The notes beneath the pieces were generated by a model that ran no database searches, was not told the DNA's origin, and was given only the letters and a program-made list of their open reading frames with translations. A program made the position numbers and the translations under genes. From contig KB235926.1 in the NCBI GenBank assembly GCA_000332255.1, forward strand, positions 2,306,734-2,370,733: 64,000 bases of DNA, given 5' to 3'. Within the stretch, counting starts at the first letter, position 1. Each line of letters opens with the position of its first letter. Positions 3,917 through 45,935 of the stretch are shown one piece after another. This stretch comes from a cyanobacterium PCC 7702 (GTDB lineage Bacteria; Cyanobacteriota; Cyanobacteriia; Cyanobacteriales; Nostocaceae).

Positions 3917-5710
3917 ATGGCAAACAACTGGGCGATCGCCATAGGCATAAATCAATATCAGTTTTTTCAACCTTTAGGGTGTGCACAAGCTGATGCGGAG
4001 GCCTTAAAGGATTTTTTAATAGTGGAAGCAGGGTTTTTACAACAACAGTGTCTGTTGATGACAGATACTTCCCCACCTTTGGGAGATAGATCTACCTATC
4101 CAACAAAGGATAATATTCAGCTTTTAATAGAAGATTTGGCGGCAGCCTGCTTGCAACCCCAGGATCGACTGTGGTTTTTCTTTAGTGGTTACGGCGTTAA
4201 CTACAAAGGCCAAGATTATTTAATGCCAGTCGAAGGAAATCCTGAGGAGGTGGAAGAAACTGGTATACAAGTCAAAACACTAATGCAAACTTTCCTCATA
4301 GCAGAGCTAGAAATAGTGCTGCTGTTGGATATGAACCGTGCTTTTGCCAACCAAGGAAATACCTCCGCTGGTCAAGAAACCATTGAACTAGCTCAGGAAT
4401 TAGAAATTCCAACAATTGTGTCTTGTCAACCAGAGCAATTCTCTCACGAAAGCAGAGAATTAGGCCACGGATTTTTTACAGCAGCGTTATTAGAAGGTTT
4501 GCGTTCTGGTCACGGTAATTCCTTAGAAGGTTTAGAAAGATACCTGAGTTTGCGTACGCCAGAACTATGTCAGCACTACTGGCGTCCTACGCAAAATCCT
4601 GTAACTGTTATTCCTCGCAGACAACAGGAAATTTTGCCACCCTTGTCAGTCAGCGAAAACACACAAGCAACGCCGAGGATTACTTCTCGAGAAATCTTAG
4701 CTGCTGCACTTCCAGCTCCTTCCCTGCATCCTAATTCTCACACAAATTATTCGGCACAACAGTTAGTTACAAATCACAACACCAGCACTAACAAGGATAA
4801 ACAAACAATTTCCACTAATAACTTGGGTGGCTCCTTATCGTCCTCAACTCCAGCAAACCAGAACAAAAAGATAGCCAACACCTGGTTTTGGCGTCGATGG
4901 TGGTTGTGGAGTACAAGTACGATATTCATATCAATTCTAATCGCAGCATTTTATCTAGACCGTCAAGCAATTTTCAAAGTAGCACTGCAATTGTTGCCAG
5001 CAACATCCAACTCTGTTAACGATGACGCTGAAACGGAAATTCTTCCTTTGTCACCCCAACCGACCTACGATCGCAAGGTAATCAAATCATCTCCCACTAC
5101 TTCCGCTAATTCCCAAGCAATAACACGCAAGCAAGCTTTGTTGGATTTGGCAAGAATGTCGCTACAACCAACTCAAGCAAGCGATCTAAGTTTAGCGATT
5201 GCCAAAGCACGAAAAATTAAACCTGGCGATCCACTTTATCAAAGGGCCCAGCAGGATATGCAACTTTGGAGTCGGATGATTTTAGATTTAGCTGAAAGTC
5301 GTGCCAAGCAAAAACAGTATGCTCAAGCTATAGCAGCAGCGAAATTGATTGCTAAAGACCAGCTTATTTATCCGCAAGCGCAAGCAGCAATTAATCTCTG
5401 GCGAATTAGGGCTAAGCAGTACGTGGCAAACAAAACTCTTTTGGATGCAGCAAATGCCTTAATTGTAACTGGACAGGCTTCTACTTACAATCGCGCCATC
5501 GAAGTAGCCAAAAAAGTAGCGCCGGGCGAACCAGGTTTCGATCAAGCCCAAAAACTTATCAACCAATGGAGCGAAAAAATCTTGGTTTTGGCTTGGAAGC
5601 GAGCTTCCCAAGGAAAGTTTGCAGCAGCGATCGCTACGGCTAATTTAGTTCCAGAAGGAACATCGGCTTACAAAAAAGCTCAGCAAGCACTGCAAAAGTG
5701 GCGAAGGTAG
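3917..5710 (+). CDS. Caspase-like protein lacking the His/Cys pair (pseudo-orthocaspase), membrane-anchored
   Basis: A 597-residue protein. Residues 1-225 form a C14-type caspase domain: AIAIGINQY strand, FFFSGYG where active members have SGHG, and LLLDMNRA where active members have a D-x-C motif. The catalytic His is thus Tyr92 and the catalytic Cys is Asn140. A low-complexity Ser/Thr/Asn linker (about 240-320) leads to one transmembrane helix (about 328-350). The C-terminus (about 400-597) has three degenerate helical repeats of roughly 60-70 residues with recurrent AQ..(I/M)..W and Y..AI..A motifs. Cyanobacteria are known to encode orthocaspases with Tyr replacing His; proteolysis is not expected here. 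A scaffold or peptide-binding role is inference. Confidence 0.9.
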   Translation: MANNWAIAIGINQYQFFQPLGCAQADAEALKDFLIVEAGFLQQQCLLMTDTSPPLGDRSTYPTKDNIQLLIEDLAAACLQPQDRLWFFFSGYGVNYKGQDYLMPVEGNPEEVEETGIQVKTLMQTFLIAELEIVLLLDMNRAFANQGNTSAGQETIELAQELEIPTIVSCQPEQFSHESRELGHGFFTAALLEGLRSGHGNSLEGLERYLSLRTPELCQHYWRPTQNPVTVIPRRQQEILPPLSVSENTQATPRITSREILAAALPAPSLHPNSHTNYSAQQLVTNHNTSTNKDKQTISTNNLGGSLSSSTPANQNKKIANTWFWRRWWLWSTSTIFISILIAAFYLDRQAIFKVALQLLPATSNSVNDDAETEILPLSPQPTYDRKVIKSSPTTSANSQAITRKQALLDLARMSLQPTQASDLSLAIAKARKIKPGDPLYQRAQQDMQLWSRMILDLAESRAKQKQYAQAIAAAKLIAKDQLIYPQAQAAINLWRIRAKQYVANKTLLDAANALIVTGQASTYNRAIEVAKKVAPGEPGFDQAQKLINQWSEKILVLAWKRASQGKFAAAIATANLVPEGTSAYKKAQQALQKWRR

Positions 5711-21135: not shown

Positions 21136-23901
21136 TTAGGGAAAGCGGGTTTTTCTTTTATTAAGCAAGCACTTTTCTAGTTCTGCAGCCCAAAAAACAA
21201 TCGAACTCAGAAGCAAACATATAATTAAATCCTGGAATGATAAGGGTTGGGTAGCGAAAATTTTTTGCAAAAAAGGAATGTATACAACAGCTAGTTGCAA
21301 CACTAACGTCAATAGCACAGCTGCTAAAAGTACTTTGTTGGAAAACAGACCAATTTGAAATAGAGAATCCCTAGCAGAACGACTGGCTAGAGCATTTCCC
21401 ATTTGCGAAAGGGTAAGGTTAGTAAACACCATAGTTTGCCAACCGGGATTACCGTGGCGCCAGTACAAATAGCCTGTGCCAAAAGATACTAGACCCATAA
21501 GCAGACCAATCCAAACTATGCTTTTGGCCATTCCTCGCGCAAAGAAATTTTCATCAGGAGGATAGGGAGGTCGATCCATAATATTTCGTTCTGCTGGCTC
21601 CAAACCCAAAGCCAAAGCTGGTAAACCATCTGTTGTCAAGTTAATCCAAAGAATTTGCAGTGGTAAAAGCGGTAATGGCATACCAAACAAGGGAGCCAGC
21701 AGCATTACCCAAAGTTCACCAGCGTTGCTGCTGAGAAGATATTTGATGAACTTGCGGATATTTTCGTATATGACCCGTCCTTCTTTAACTGCGGCTACGA
21801 TTGTGGCAAAGCTTTCGTCTAGCAGTACTATATCTGCTGCATTTTTGGCGGCATCGGTACCGCTAATTCCCATGGCTATGCCAATATCAGCTGCTTTGAG
21901 AGCAGGTGTGTCGTTGACACCATCGCCGACCATAGCCACGATATGTCCTTGCTTTTGTAGGGTCTGAATAACGTCTAGCTTTTGTTGGGGAGAAAGTTGC
22001 GTGTAAATAGATACTTCATTGAGGAGTTGTTTGAATTCCTCCAAAGAAGATACGTGGGAAATATCTTCGCTGGTAAGGACGATCTCGTTAGTAGCAATAC
22101 CGACTTGGCGAGCAATATATCCGGCAAAAACAGAGCGATCGTCTGTAATCAGTATGGGACGAATACCAGCTGATTTACAGGTGGCGATCGCATCTGCTGC
22201 TTCTGGTCGTAAGGGATCGGTCAACCCTACCAAACCAACAAAAGTCAGGTCTTGCTCTAAGTTTTCCCGATACTCGCCCCCATCAAACGCCAAAAGTCGA
22301 AAAGCAGCACCCAAAACTTGCAGTCCGTTTTGTACAAGCTGTTCGTGGGCAATGCTAATGCGTTGGCGCCAGTTTTGATCTAAGGGTTTGGCTTCTCCAT
22401 TTACCCAAATGCAATCACAAACTTCTAATAAGCTATTTACCCTTCCTTTGCTAAAAGCAACGCTGCTTGCTGGAATAAGAGCAGCTTGACTCCAATGCCA
22501 CAAACTTGCCAAAGCATAGGGAACTTGAGAAAGTTGCACGGGGAATTGGTGGATGGTTGTCATCCGCTGTCGCCTGGAGTCGAAGGGTATTTCAGATATA
22601 CGGGGAAAGGCTTGTTCTAGTTTTGCTTTCCACAATCCGCAACTAGCAGCGGCGATCGCCAGCGCTACTTCTCTAGGATCGCCGCCAGGCTTTAAGTACT
22701 GTGACTCGTTTGCATCACAATCTAATCGAGCATTATTGCACAAAGTACAGCTAGCTAAAAGCAAAGCTATATCTGGTGATTGCTGGAGCGCAAATGCTTG
22801 TTCTTGTGGATGGGAAGCTAGTGTTGGTAACGTCTTGTCCAGTTGGGCGGTTAAATCTAATCTGTGACCAGCCACATCCAAGACAGTAACTGTCATGCGG
22901 TTAGCAGTTAACGTCCCCGTTTTCCCAGAGCAGATCGCCGTCACCAGTCCTAAGGCTTCTACAGCGGGAAGGTTGCGGATCAAAGCTCGATATTTGAGCA
23001 TTCGCTGCGCTCCTAAAGCTAGAGCAATAGTGACCACAGCTGGTAATCCTTCTGGCAAAGCGGCCACCATCAGAGTAATGGCAGTCAGGAAAATTAACTT
23101 GATATCTTCTCCCTGCCACACCTCCAGAAGTACAATCAATCCTACAAGGCTCAGGCAAGCAATTATTAACAGGTGTCCCAACCGGTCCAAGCGTTTTTGC
23201 AGTGGAGTTGGCTCGGGTTCTACCGCGGCGCTGATGCTGGTGATACGTCCTAACTCAGTATCGCTCCCGGTTTCCGTGACAACTGCCTTCCCCCGCCCGT
23301 AGGTAACAACCGTGCCCATGTATACCATATTGTGGCGATGCCAAATCTGGGGAATTGGTTGCTTTGAGGTTTGCGGGTCTTTATCTACAGGCTCTAGTAT
23401 TCCTGTGAGATTTGCCTGCTGGACTTGTAATCCCCAACTTTCCAACAACCGACAATCCGCCGGAACCGTGTCTCCTGTTTCCAAAAGGACGATATCCCCA
23501 GGTACGAGCAGGCGAGCAGAAATTTGCTGAATGCGGTTGTCACGCCGGACTTTGACTGTAGGAACAACTAGCTGTTGGAGCTTGGCGATCGCTTTTTGCG
23601 CCCGATACTCTTGAATAAAACCCAAAAAAGCAATCAATACAACAATGGCGATAATGCCTATAGCATCTTTGCAATCACCCAGAAGATTGGAGAAAATTGC
23701 TGCCACGATTAATATAATTACTAACGTTTCGCTCAGTTGCTCCCACAAAATGTCCCAGGGTGTTTTTCCCTTTGCAATTAACTCGTTAAAACCATACTTT
23801 TCTAAACGATAGTTAGCTTCTGTTGTACTCAGTCCTAAACAAATATCAGTGTTCAATTTTTGCAATACATCTTTAGCATCCAATTGATACCAACTGCTCA
23901 T
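21136..23901 (-). CDS. P2-type cation ATPase homologue with degenerate catalytic motifs
   Basis: A 921-residue protein with full P-type ATPase architecture: cation_ATPase_N domain, actuator domain, about ten membrane segments, and P and N domains. Ion-site motifs of Ca2+-type pumps are intact (PEGLPAVVT near 283-291; [16 protein letters not shown] in the sixth helix), as is the hinge [11 protein letters not shown] (659-669). However, the phosphorylation motif reads CSGKTGT, so the Asp is Gly326; actuator TGES reads TGIL (166-169); and TGD reads TDD (586-588). KGAPE is also altered (KGRVN). It probably cannot form the aspartyl-phosphate, so active pumping is doubtful. The frame is otherwise intact, arguing against simple decay. 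Confidence 0.93.
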
Positions 23902-24005: not shown

Positions 24006-24680
24006 TTAAATTAACCCGGCGATTATATTTATACTCATAGCTAAAATCATCGTATTAAAAAAGAAAGACAACACGCTATGCAGCAGTGCCAGTCGCCGCA
24101 GTGAACGAGAATTGATTTGTACATCTGAAACTTGGCTGGTCATGCCAATCACGAAAGAAAAGTACAGAAAATCCCAATAATCAGGGTCATTTTCGCCAGG
24201 AAAATCTAAACCAGTTGTTTTCCATTCATTTAAAGGCTTGTCCTCACGATAGTAGGCATTAGCATAGTGGAAAGCAAAAATTGTATGCACCAGCAGCCAA
24301 GACCCGACAATTGTCACTACTGAAAGCGTTAGGTGCAGAAACAATAATTTGCGCTCCGCACCCTTGTCGTGTAAGATAAAGCCAATGGCGAACAAACTGG
24401 CACATGCTGCCATCATAATTAAGCTCAAAATTACCAGGCGTCCTATGTCTTCCTGGCGAGCATAACGGCGCATCTTATCTGGAGTCGCTTCTAGCATGGC
24501 TCTCCACGTCAAGCCTAAAAAACCAACCATACCCGTATCCCACACGCAAAGTATTCGGGTTGGCAAATGAAACCAAGGTGGCAATAGCAGCGAAACTACC
24601 CCTGCTAGCAGCACAGATAACAGAGATATCTTGCGAAAACTCCATCGCGCTGATTTTTGTGGTTTGGGTGCAGATTTCAC
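24006..24680 (-). CDS. DUF1345 family membrane protein
   Basis: A 224-residue integral membrane protein. Hydrophobic segments are seen at about 17-34, 45-60, 85-105, 115-135, 165-180 and 197-222. The signature stretch DFLYFSFVIGMTSQVSDVQ, followed by RRLALLHSVLSFFFNT, is characteristic of DUF1345. Function unknown. The apparent start is GTG at 24680, with a basic N-terminus before the first membrane helix. It lies between the ATPase-like gene and the phosphoesterase on the same strand. Confidence 0.88.
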   Translation of the reverse strand: MKSAPKPQKSARWSFRKISLLSVLLAGVVSLLLPPWFHLPTRILCVWDTGMVGFLGLTWRAMLEATPDKMRRYARQEDIGRLVILSLIMMAACASLFAIGFILHDKGAERKLLFLHLTLSVVTIVGSWLLVHTIFAFHYANAYYREDKPLNEWKTTGLDFPGENDPDYWDFLYFSFVIGMTSQVSDVQINSRSLRRLALLHSVLSFFFNTMILAMSINIIAGLI

Positions 24681-24764: not shown

Positions 24765-27340
24765 TTAGGGGTAAATGAGTTTTTTGTCAGCATCAGTGAG
24801 ATAGTTAGAAGGATGAGCAAAAACATAGCCACGATAGTTCGGCTGTGGCTGAAAAATACTGAACATTGGCACTGCTAAACCATCGTTGACATTCATGGGA
24901 TCGACTCCCAAAATGACTTCCACAGTGCGCAGTAAACTGAGTTGGTCGTAGCGATCGCTGATTACTGCTTGACGTTTCACATAAGGACCAACCGCTAAAG
25001 CAACGGTGCGCGTAGCATCTACATGATCCGGTCCATTTTGGGCATCATCTTCTACAATTAAAATCAAGCTGTTTTTCCAAATCGGACTTTTAGCGATCGT
25101 TTCTACAATTTTTCCCAAAGCTGCGTCGTTCTGGGCTAATAATTGGTAAGGGTTGAGAAAATTGGGATTTGTTCCTGCTGTATGATCGTTAGGTAGCCAA
25201 ATGTAATGAAATGCGGCTACTTTTTTCGATTGCAGTTGTTTGTCGAAATCTTTTTTCCAATCAAGAAAACGCTGTAGATCTGAGTATTTCAAATCATAGT
25301 AATGATAGTTGAAAGGATAGTGGTAGAGAAAATCTGCTTCCTTGCGCCTAAAAGCTGGGTATTTGCGCCAAGCTTCGGCTAAGCTATTGTCACCAGTAAA
25401 TAATTTCGACAATGAGGTGGCAAACTGGGGATTTTCAATTAACCGCAGCGCATCCTCCACCGTATCTGCTTTGCCGTAGTATAACTTGAAAAGTTCGCTT
25501 GCGGCTTTACCTCTATCTGTCTGAGCAGCCAAGCGCATGCTTTGAGCGTAAAATTTTTTCGCCAGCGTACTATCTGCTCCAAAAGCTTCCACTATCAATT
25601 GATAGGAGCGTGTAAAGATATAGTAAGGTTCACCGTAAATGCGATAATCTATCTTTTTTGCTGCCAAAGCATTCCACAGATAGGTGGGAGAATAAGTTAC
25701 AGGTACTATTCCGAAGGGATAGCCTTTGTAACGCCCTTGATACTGTGTATTACCCAGCCATTCTAAAAAAGGACTAGCATAACCACTGGTAGTAAAACTG
25801 TGACCCAAAACGCTGATTTCGCCATTGACAAAGAAGTTATCCAGAGTAACAAAATCTTCTGCTAGCTTGTGATGGTTGGGAGTGATATCCCGTCCAAATA
25901 AAGTTAGAGATTTATCGCCATTACCCCGTCCCAAATCTCCCAGAATTTGATCGTAGGTGCGGTTTTCTTTGACGATATAAAAAATGTAACGGATGGGTAG
26001 TTTAAAACCTCCTTTAGGACTGTAAAGGGGTGAACCCTCTTCTGTTTGCTTGGTCCACTGTGATAAAGAAGAAGCGATCGCGTCTTTTGGAATAATAGAA
26101 ACCGCACCCCTAAGCAAACTTAATACATAATCCCGGCCACCTTTTTCAGGGATAGCTTGCGGTCCGTGGGGATTAGGACGACGAGAATGAATTCCTTTGG
26201 CACTTACTACCAGCATCTGCTTTTGGTTAAACAATACTTTTGTCGGATACCAACCGCTGGGAATCAATCCTTCTAACCGCTTTTTGACAAGATCGAATAC
26301 TGCTACTGCTTGAATTTCCGCTTGAGTAACATACAAGTGTTTGCCATCAATCGTACAAGAAGTTGGGGAACTACCAAAACGAAATCCTTCATGGCGAACA
26401 TCGATACGATCCACCACCACATCTTGTTTGCTGTCTACTACTGCAATATTGTCAGAAGCAGTGTTCACAACGTATAATTTCCCGTCGCCTATACATAAAT
26501 TTTGGGGATTTTGTCCTACAACCAAGCTTTTTAAAAGTTTGAGTTGGCGATCAAAAACCAAAAGTTTGTTTTCTCCTAGCAAAGTCAGATAAAGCTTACC
26601 GTTGAGAAATTCCGCTGCATAGGGGAAATACCCGACTGTAACCTCCTTTTGTATTCGTCCAGTTTCGGTGTTCAAAATGGCCAGCTTCCCTTGGGTGTAA
26701 CTCCGATCATTTTCCGCAACCATGTATGCTACCGCCAAATGCTTGCTATCTATGGAAGCAATTCCTGCTGTATATCCTTGCAATTGATACTCGCGTACTA
26801 AGTTAAACTGTTTGTTGAGGCGATAAATCTTTTGTCCGAATCCACCACTGATGTAAAGGTCACCGTCCCATCCCTGCTTCGCACTGGGGAAAAGAGATTG
26901 ATATCGCAGAGTTTTGATGACTTTACCGATCTTAGTATCTACCACCGAGACTTCTTGCGCATCTTTGCCATACCAACCTGTGTTCAGCACCACTAGTTTA
27001 CCTGCATAAAAAATTGCTTCGTAGGGAAGTCTACCAACTTCTACTTGAGTCCCAGCAGGAGAAAGCTTCCAACCGTTAGGCAGGCTTATCTCTGCTTTGG
27101 TGCTATCCTGTCTTTTAGCTATTGTGCGAGGATACGGAGTTTTTTTGCAAATTCCCACAGTTCCCGGTTTAAATTTTCTTCTTCTGTTGGTTGATCGGGA
27201 GCATCTTCTCTCCATGTTGGTTGGGAGCAAGTAATCCTATTTGTACTTGTCGCCAAGCTGAGACTTAATATGGCTACAACTAACCACTTTTGGTTCTTTT
27301 TCACTTTTAGCAGCGATCGCGTTGCAGATTTGATTTTCAT
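24765..27340 (-). CDS. YncE-like beta-propeller plus phosphoesterase; signal peptide in a different frame
   Basis: The main frame (24765-27230) encodes a beta-propeller half of YncE-type repeats (for example YVVNTASDNIAVVDSKQDVV) followed by a phosphoesterase/alkaline-phosphatase-like domain (VKENRTYDQILGDLG, NFFVNGEISVLGHS, EDDAQNGPDHVDATR). It is probably periplasmic or outer-surface and acts on phosphate esters. Its first 40 or so residues look out of frame. The frame 27119-27340 instead supplies a basic start and hydrophobic signal peptide (WLVVAILSLSLATS). The two join by a -1 shift at an A7 run (27140-27146) in codons GCA AAA AAA. Programmed slippage, a real mutation or a sequencing error are all possible. 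Confidence 0.8.
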
Positions 27341-43661: not shown

Positions 43662-45935
43662 CTAACGAACTATTCTGCGCATGTAATTTCCCCATAATTG
43701 GGCGGCTTGAGCACTACTACCAAAGGTGGGGGAGTTATTGTCGTTACCCAGCCAGACACCGGTGACCAAGCGGCGACTGGGAATAAAACCAATAAACCAC
43801 AGGTCAACATTTTTATCTGTGGTACCTGTTTTCCCGGATACTGCCAGGTCGTCAATGGCAGCATTGGTACCAGTACCGCTTGTTACTACTCCACGCAGCA
43901 AACGAGTCATGGTATCGGCTACCTCCGTTCGCAGCACGCGTCTGTTAGCATCGCTATCTTGATCGAAGGAGTAGATAACGCGGCAAGTTTTTAAGTTATT
44001 GCGGTCTTTGCAATCGCTGCTGTCTAGGATGCGGTTGATAGCGTGGGGACGGTTCCAGACCCCGCGATTGGCAATAGCGCCAAAAGCACCAGTCATTTCC
44101 AAAACATTGACCACGCTTTGACCCAATACCAAGCCGGGAACTGGGTCTAGCTCTGATTTGATTCCCAAGCGCCTGGCCATACTAACAACTTTATTCAATC
44201 CTATTTGTCTGGCAACTCTGAGGGCAATAGGGTTTTCTGATTGGGCTAGTCCGGTGGCAATATCTAAACTAACATCAGCACCCGCCCGACAAGGTTTGTA
44301 GGTAAAACCTTGCCATGTCAAAGGAGCGCAGGAGTAGGTTGTATCTGGCGAAATTCCTTGCTCTATGGCTGCAGTATAGGTAAAAATTTTAAAGGTTGAG
44401 CCTGGCTGTCTTTGAGCTTGAACAGCGCGATTGAACTGACTTTTTGTGTAGTCGGTACCGCCCACCATTGCCAAGATGGCGCCAGTACTGGAATCTAGGG
44501 TAACTATTGCTCCTTGAGAAAAACGGAAATTGCTACCAGCGCCTTTGATGTAGTTGCGCAAAGCTGTTTCTGCCTGTGATTGCATGGCAGGGTCGAGCTG
44601 AGTTTCAATAATAAAATTGCCTTCGCTTGCTATGTCTTTTCCCAGGATAGATTCTAGTTCTTGGAAGACGTAACTGTAAAAATAGGGGGCAATGGTTTTG
44701 GCTTGGCGTTCGCAGACTCTGGGGCTAACTTCCACAGGCGATCGCCTCGCTCGGTTGTACTCGTCCTGTTTAATTTTGCCTGCATCCAGCATCCGCCGCA
44801 GTACGCGATTGCGGTATTCAATTATTCTTCTTTTACTTTCGTTATCGCCGCAAAAGTTAAAGCTGTTCGGTCCTGGTAAAATGCCTACTAATGTGGCTGC
44901 TTCCGCTAGAGTTAATTCTTTGGCTGATTTATCAAAGTAGTATTTAGCAGCGTCTTCAAATCCGGAAGTGTCGGCTCCTAAAAACACTCGATTTAAATAG
45001 GTCAGCAGAATGTCGTCTTTGCTATAAAATACTTCTAGCTTTAACGAGACAATTGCTTCTCTTAATTTTCGACCTAAAGAATCCTGTCTGCCTACATATT
45101 CACGGAATAAACTCCGAGCTACTTGCTGGGTTACGGTACTGGCTCCTTGCTGAAAATCGCCGCTTTTGGTATTGATAATTATGGCTCGCAAAATTCCATA
45201 GGGATCGACGCCAAAGTGCCAGTAGTAGCGACTGTCTTCTGAAGCGATGACAGCAGCTGGTAAGTAGGGACCAAAGTCTTGCAGGCGCTTCATGTCAACG
45301 TGAGAAGTGGTGCGCGGCTGGCGCAGTGGTGTTTCTCCATCACGGGCGTATACAATGACTGGAGCGCGGGTTGCTGTTGGTAGGGGTCTGACGGAGAATT
45401 TGAGCCATTCTACACCGATAATTAATGCTATCAAGGCGCTAACACCGCCAATTCCGTAAGCTCCCCAAGTGGCTGCTTTGATGTACCAAGGAGGTGGATC
45501 TACGTATTGCAGGCGCACGGAAGCAGCAAGTTCTGGTGGTCCCAAAGTCAGAATATCGCCGTGACGAAGTTCCAAGGAGGTAATGCGCCGCTTTCCACGA
45601 TAAATTCCGTTGGTGGAGTTTTCGTCTTTGATGACGAAGACTGGTTTCCTTTGCGTAGAGTCTCGTGATAGCGACAGGTGAATTTGGCTGACAACCGGAT
45701 TGCGTACCACAATGTCGCAGGATTTAGAACTGCGACCGAGTACGTAGCGATCGCCTAACAGAGGATATACTTCTGCTTTATCTGTTCCCGCATCCTGTAC
45801 CCAAAGTTCTGGTACTCTCGCATTGGGCTTGAGTGCTAGTTTGGAAAAATCTACCCTAGCTTGAATTGTTTGCACTGCTTGGGTTATCTGACCAAGCAAT
45901 GTTTGTGGTTTGTGAGGAGGTTGGGGGGAACTCAT
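43662..45935 (-). CDS. Class A penicillin-binding protein (PBP1A family) with N-terminal FHA domain
   Basis: A 757-residue bifunctional peptidoglycan synthase. Residues about 55-145 form an FHA phosphothreonine-binding domain (LGRSSKSCDIVV, SQIHLSL, NSTNGIYRG). One transmembrane helix (about 155-176) precedes the GT51 glycosyltransferase domain with catalytic Glu233 (ASEDSRYY) and STVTQQVAR. The transpeptidase follows, with Ser513 in STFK and a KTGTT motif near the C-terminus. The cytoplasmic FHA domain suggests control by Ser/Thr kinases; FHA-PBP fusions are known in other cyanobacteria. It is convergent with the DUF4335 gene, with 13 bases between stops. Confidence 0.95.
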   Translation of the reverse strand: MSSPQPPHKPQTLLGQITQAVQTIQARVDFSKLALKPNARVPELWVQDAGTDKAEVYPLLGDRYVLGRSSKSCDIVVRNPVVSQIHLSLSRDSTQRKPVFVIKDENSTNGIYRGKRRITSLELRHGDILTLGPPELAASVRLQYVDPPPWYIKAATWGAYGIGGVSALIALIIGVEWLKFSVRPLPTATRAPVIVYARDGETPLRQPRTTSHVDMKRLQDFGPYLPAAVIASEDSRYYWHFGVDPYGILRAIIINTKSGDFQQGASTVTQQVARSLFREYVGRQDSLGRKLREAIVSLKLEVFYSKDDILLTYLNRVFLGADTSGFEDAAKYYFDKSAKELTLAEAATLVGILPGPNSFNFCGDNESKRRIIEYRNRVLRRMLDAGKIKQDEYNRARRSPVEVSPRVCERQAKTIAPYFYSYVFQELESILGKDIASEGNFIIETQLDPAMQSQAETALRNYIKGAGSNFRFSQGAIVTLDSSTGAILAMVGGTDYTKSQFNRAVQAQRQPGSTFKIFTYTAAIEQGISPDTTYSCAPLTWQGFTYKPCRAGADVSLDIATGLAQSENPIALRVARQIGLNKVVSMARRLGIKSELDPVPGLVLGQSVVNVLEMTGAFGAIANRGVWNRPHAINRILDSSDCKDRNNLKTCRVIYSFDQDSDANRRVLRTEVADTMTRLLRGVVTSGTGTNAAIDDLAVSGKTGTTDKNVDLWFIGFIPSRRLVTGVWLGNDNNSPTFGSSAQAAQLWGNYMRRIVR

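Follow-up and report, generated by a model that had tools for sequence, protein, structure and literature searches.

The 64,000-nucleotide stretch of cyanobacterial DNA analyzed here (the window) encodes a member of a clade of P2A-type Ca2+-ATPase relatives in which, judging from the residues that remain, the proteins are very probably dead as phosphorylating pumps. We give roughly even chances to the fuller reading that the clade represents a retained, catalytically dead P2A-type Ca2+-ATPase (pseudo-pump) working as a cytosolic Ca2+-binding switch, that is, as a sensor or regulatory partner. The features on which the argument draws are listed below, with Ca2+-site and ATP-site residues named by their presumed SERCA equivalents, which we assigned by motif alignment.

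21136 to 23901, minus strand: pseudo-P2A-type ATPase gene, 921 aa, with A, P, and N domains and M1 to M10 (full-length P-type fold)
21628 to 21642, minus strand: NLTTD of M6, equivalents of Ca2+ ligands Asn796, Thr799, and Asp800 (16/16 clade members)
21715 to 21726, minus strand: N-x-x-E of M5, equivalents of Ca2+ ligands Asn768 and Glu771 (16/16)
21910 to 21927, minus strand: GDGVND hinge, intact (G, D, G, N, and D invariant in 16/16)
22138 to 22146, minus strand: TDD in place of TGD, residues 586 to 588 (window lineage only)
22318 to 22320, minus strand: Gln528, equivalent of ATP-contacting Arg560 (Gln in the window copy only)
22567 to 22569, minus strand: Gln445, equivalent of the SERCA ATP-site Lys492 (Gln in 16/16 clade members)
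22906 to 22932, minus strand: CSGKTGTLT, degenerate phosphorylation loop, residues 324 to 332 (Gly326 for the phospho-acceptor Asp)
23041 to 23055, minus strand: PEGLP of M4, cation-binding motif intact (16/16)
23395 to 23406, minus strand: TGIL, degenerate TGES dephosphorylation loop of the A domain, residues 166 to 169 (Ile168 for Glu)
24006 to 24680, minus strand: DUF1345 membrane protein gene, co-oriented, 104 bp upstream of the pseudo-pump (PF07077, E value of 5.9e-67)

The 921-codon frame contains no internal stop, and its product matches the Pfam families Cation_ATPase_N, E1-E2_ATPase, Cation_ATPase, Hydrolase, and Cation_ATPase_C; by sequence, it is a complete P2A (SPCA/SERCA/PMR1-like) ATPase. 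An AlphaFold model built with 45 related rows (pLDDT, 83.9; pTM, 0.78) has SPCA1 as its best solved match (7yam; Z score, 42.6; rmsd, 4.9 Å over 850 residues), which together with the Pfam domains assigns the protein to the P-type ATPase superfamily fold. The model also matches LMCA1 and SERCA over its whole length. Because it resembles pump structures in both E1 and E2, we claim no conformational state for it, and the predicted P2A fold by itself shows no function. The top NCBIfam model is the PMR1-type Ca2+-ATPase TIGR01522, at 672 bits (cutoff, 798.3), and TIGR01116 scores 577.9 bits (cutoff, 703.4); the curated equivalog cutoff for P2A Ca2+-ATPases of the PMR1/SERCA type is missed. Automatic annotation likely labels the genes of this clade as Ca2+ pumps.

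What marks a P-type ATPase as an enzyme, the phospho-acceptor Asp of DKTGT and the Glu of TGES, is absent. The phosphorylation loop is encoded as TGC TCT GGG AAA ACG GGG ACG (C S G K T G T), and codon 326 (22926 to 22924) specifies Gly. A sequence-only reading of the window had reported this change of DKTGT to GKTGT at codon GGG (22924 to 22926), along with TGIL for TGES and TDD for TGD, and all three can be read directly from the frame and its translation. Its statement that PEGLP, GDGVND, NLTTDGLP, and the whole 921-codon frame are intact also holds; NLTTDGLP is unaltered in the window protein.

Relatives were gathered from a scan of species genomes, from searches at the genus, family, order, and phylum levels, and from two additional family searches, and the matching frames were extracted and aligned. 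Gly occupies the Asp position in 19 sequences including the window copy (GKTGT in 17, GKKGT in L016 and L090), a set that contains copies from the same or near-identical genomes (L016/L090 and L017/L110). The Glu of TGES is replaced by Val, Ile, Ala, or Thr in every member with a readable site and is present in all active relatives; in L099, this A-domain site is absent from the frame used, having been cut by a frameshift. The conservation that the sequence-only reading had proposed to look for was found at Gly326 in all 19 sequences, and Glu was found in none of the readable sites. Close orthologues do not carry DKTGT and TGES: those with at least 61% identity, as well as L098 (55%), have GKTGT or GKKGT. 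The nearest relatives beyond the clade (57% identity at most) carry DKTGT and TGES or TGEA, and all active relatives examined have Asp at the position of Gly326. Active relative L100 and clade member L091 lie in one genome, as do L131 and L112. The clade spans four families of the order (f1, f5, f7, and f11), and the phylum sample yielded no member from any other order. Its distribution is patchy, with strict-cutoff matches in 13 of the 145 genomes sampled in the family.

Three catalytic losses had been proposed from the window alone. Two of them, Asp to Gly and Glu to a non-acidic residue, are clade-wide, but TDD occurs only in the window copy and L016/L090, the remaining members having kept TGD; we therefore rejected TDD as a clade-defining trait and regard it as lineage specific. 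Similarly, the observation that GGG lies two base changes from an Asp codon is correct for the window, but the codon in other members is GGT or GGC, a single substitution away from GAT or GAC; the second change reflects drift of the third base.

In a quick tree, the clade forms one side of a fully supported branch. A careful tree computed without residues 168, 326, and 445 gave it support of 100/100 (bootstrap/aLRT), and it was recovered in all 200 bootstrap trees, nested among active pumps and adjoining L114 to L127. Monophyly and this nested position indicate a single loss of both the dephosphorylating Glu and the phospho-acceptor Asp, in the ancestor of this cyanobacterial clade.

The clade is under strong selection that has eased slightly in the catalytic domains. 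On the tree, codon 326 (GGT, GGC, or GGG) underwent at least five synonymous changes and no amino acid change, while the former Glu168 position underwent seven amino acid changes with no return to Glu. Pairwise NG86 dN/dS values were 0.083 to 0.123 for eight clade pairs and 0.099 to 0.128 for six pairs among the nearer active relatives, so the dN/dS check suggested in the sequence-only reading points to purifying selection. In a one-omega codon model, the clade had a value of 0.157, the active sisters 0.127, and the remaining active relatives 0.115. The excess over the sisters was clearest in the A domain (0.167 versus 0.121) and P domain (0.104 versus 0.070) and smaller in the transmembrane region (0.133 versus 0.110) and N domain (0.196 versus 0.188). 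We attribute some relaxation to the clade because omega is slightly above that of active relatives and because the window copy has accumulated extra ATP-site changes. With a monophyletic clade under purifying selection, the earlier proposal of a retained, repurposed pseudo-pump gains support, and we are nearly certain that the pseudo-pump is kept by selection.

The alignment has 142 columns in which 32 active sequences agree throughout (two are gap columns). Just two of these columns differ in all members of the clade: residue 168, where the dephosphorylating Glu would be, and residue 326, the site of the phospho-acceptor Asp. All ten listed Ca2+-site positions are invariant in the clade, compared with 42% of membrane columns (141/333), and the equivalents of E309, N768, E771, N796, T799, and D800, the ligands expected of a P2A Ca2+-ATPase, are present in 16/16 members. 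The ATP- or phosphate-site positions are less constant, with 11/21 invariant in the clade versus 18/21 in the active set. Several of these changes were absent from the sequence-only reading: the position of Lys492 is Gln in 16/16 members tested and Lys or Arg in 23/23 active sequences, and the window copy has Gln for Arg560 (Arg in the other 15 members), Arg for Thr441, and Gln for Arg678. The window copy also has Asp for Gly626, and most other members retain the original residues at these positions. Given such pocket changes, ATP binding by the window copy may be weak. Separately, 15 of 23 active relatives (non-sisters among L100 to L131) carry Ala in place of Thr799 and Arg in place of Glu908 of M8, which suggests an ion stoichiometry or substrate unlike that of the clade's sisters.

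The phospho-acceptor Asp is needed for the P-type catalytic cycle, and without it no aspartyl phosphate forms. Canonical pumps bind cytosolic Ca2+ and undergo the E2-to-E1 shift without needing phosphorylation. A protein of this clade would reach neither E1P nor E2P; ATP would then drive no transport, and phosphorylation would not open the extracytoplasmic gate. Because no aspartyl phosphate can form, the protein should not pump. Ca2+ from the cytosol could still bind the kept membrane site and bring about the E2-to-E1 shift. Since the Ca2+ site has been selectively kept and both catalytic carboxylates have been lost, we infer that Ca2+ binding is the retained function, and use as a sensor or regulatory partner would be its simplest application. 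The resulting cytosolic Ca2+-binding conformational switch might act on the active PacL-type Ca2+-ATPase, a paralogue present in all 17 carrier genomes and located nearby in three of them. That the protein is a Ca2+-binding sensor or regulator rather than a channel or something else is close to an even call, if not slightly below it. In its broadest form, the reading is a hitherto unrecognized bacterial P-type pseudo-pump family that has shed ATP-driven transport and kept the Ca2+ site as a Ca2+-operated membrane switch controlling cyanobacterial Ca2+ handling, to which we assign a little less than an even chance.

In another reading, the protein is a regulatory pseudo-subunit. Its partner would be a small DUF5132 membrane protein or the active PacL-type Ca2+-ATPase, and whether it binds ions itself would matter little. 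A PacL-type Ca2+-ATPase is encoded in 17/17 carrier genomes, and in three genomes of one genus (L137 to L139) a few kilobases, holding recF and a DUF5132 gene, separate it from the pseudo-pump. A DUF5132 small membrane protein gene adjoins eight clade members (L132, L133, L135, L137, L138, L139, L142, and L143) and is also found at L015 and L088, both P-type ATPase loci, and beside three of the sisters that are active pumps (L121, L124, and L126). However, PacL proximity is limited to that one genus, and PacL-type pumps may be common outside the carriers. DUF5132 genes occur in 17/17 carriers, but the two copies in the window genome are away from the pseudo-pump. A perfectly conserved Ca2+ site would also be needless in a mere scaffold, and we regard this pairing without ion sensing as unlikely. 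DUF5132 itself is a probable membrane protein of ∼95 aa that turns up next to diverse P-type ATPases and may serve them generally as a small partner; the literature searched contains no mention of it by name. In L137, L138, and L139, recF, the DUF5132 gene, the PacL-type pump, and the pseudo-pump lie on one strand within ∼9 kb.

The DUF1345 gene listed above is paired with the pseudo-pump also in the nearest relative, L134, and does not adjoin other members; DUF1345 relatives occur in only 6/17 carrier genomes, and the gene is a possible lineage-specific operon partner. A universal operon partner was rejected, as DUF5132 lies beside eight members only (one subclade) and DUF1345 beside two. No neighbor gene conserved across the whole clade was found, so no output partner was identified.

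Somewhat less likely than the regulatory pseudo-subunit is a passive, gated cation channel or uniporter, in which two gates uncoupled from phosphorylation would let ions run down their gradient. The fully retained ion site is compatible with this, and the fold can conduct, since nonspecific leak currents arise in Na,K-ATPase from a single missense change (PMC8637647). Against it, the outer gate of canonical pumps opens in E2P, a state the clade protein should be unable to reach, and the membrane positions that differ consistently from active pumps are few (e.g., residues 90, 257, 275, and 276), with none shown to be a gate.

Continued transport by a non-phosphorylating or altered ATP mechanism, or with another nucleophile, is highly improbable: most members keep GDGVND, Lys327, Lys485, and most of the N-domain pocket, but both catalytic carboxylates are lost, Lys492 is Gln throughout, and the window copy also lacks Arg560. 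Ser325 was rejected as a substitute nucleophile, as active pumps have it too. Least credible is a decaying gene or assembly error. In its favor are the slightly raised omega, the extra pocket changes of the window copy, and one frameshifted member; on the other side, 19 sequences share the change, omega is low, frames are intact, and codon 326 has drifted synonymously. Indeed, the 19 concordant sequences and low dN/dS rule out an assembly error or recent pseudogene for the clade; the window copy alone could be in early decay. The frameshifted member, L099 (L143:8190-10927), has a single frameshift between query residues 269 and 270; the two halves can otherwise be aligned, and the cause is either decay or a sequencing error.

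Known systems help to place the pseudo-pump. SPCA1/PMR1, SERCA, and Listeria LMCA1 share with the clade the fold, domain order, PEGLP of M4, Ca2+ ligands of M5 and M6, and GDGVND, at ∼30 to 36% identity in whole-length structural alignments. Unlike these pumps, the clade lacks the phospho-acceptor Asp and the TGES Glu and has Gln for Lys492; to judge from these residues, it cannot run the Post-Albers cycle by known chemistry. The active cyanobacterial sister pumps (L114, L115, L121, L123, L124, L126, and L127) are 54 to 57% identical with identical ion-site residues, and they keep DKTGT and TGES or TGEA, which the clade does not.

The closest conceptual parallel is animal TMEM94/ERMA, which has a P-type architecture without TGES and a disputed activity: one group found no ATPase activity (PMC12134183), and another reported Mg2+ uptake (PMC13322241). 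TMEM94 keeps the Asp (DKQGI) and has lost GDGVND (GSSANL; PMC13322241), whereas the clade shows the reverse, GKTGT with GDGVND intact. TMEM94 is a human and animal protein and the clade is bacterial, and we claim no close relationship. Pump-independent functions of a P-type protein have been proposed for C. elegans CATP-1 and in Na,K-ATPase signalling (PMC11631496 and PMC6152704); both proteins keep the Asp and are regarded as pumps, in contrast to the clade. The P4-ATPase domain of apicomplexan guanylyl cyclases was rejected as a precedent, as the P. falciparum domain keeps the Asp (PMC7858053). No bacterial pseudo-pump precedent was found in the literature searched, which left most subscription journals outside its scope, so that absence is unproven.

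The Asp is taken to define P-type ATPases, and the clade lost it once and has been retained since. With the ion site untouched, the clade separates, in nature, the binding of ions from energy coupling. It makes testable whether a P-type protein that does not pump can serve as an ion sensor or partner, which in the literature searched was argued only for animal proteins such as TMEM94 and Na,K-ATPase.

We note several further loci. In Hydrococcus-type genomes, a second P-type ATPase, truncated or apparently broken, lies directly upstream of the pseudo-pump (L145:7529-8815 and L017/L144:26-832); that of L145 reads CTDKTGTLA. Upstream of DUF1345 in the window is a gene for an 821-aa protein with beta-propeller repeats and a C-terminal phosphoesterase domain (24765 to 27230, minus strand). 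The window also encodes a 597-aa metacaspase/orthocaspase-like protein with an N-terminal caspase (Peptidase_C14) domain (3917 to 5710, plus strand) and a penicillin-binding protein with an N-terminal FHA domain (43662 to 45935, minus strand).
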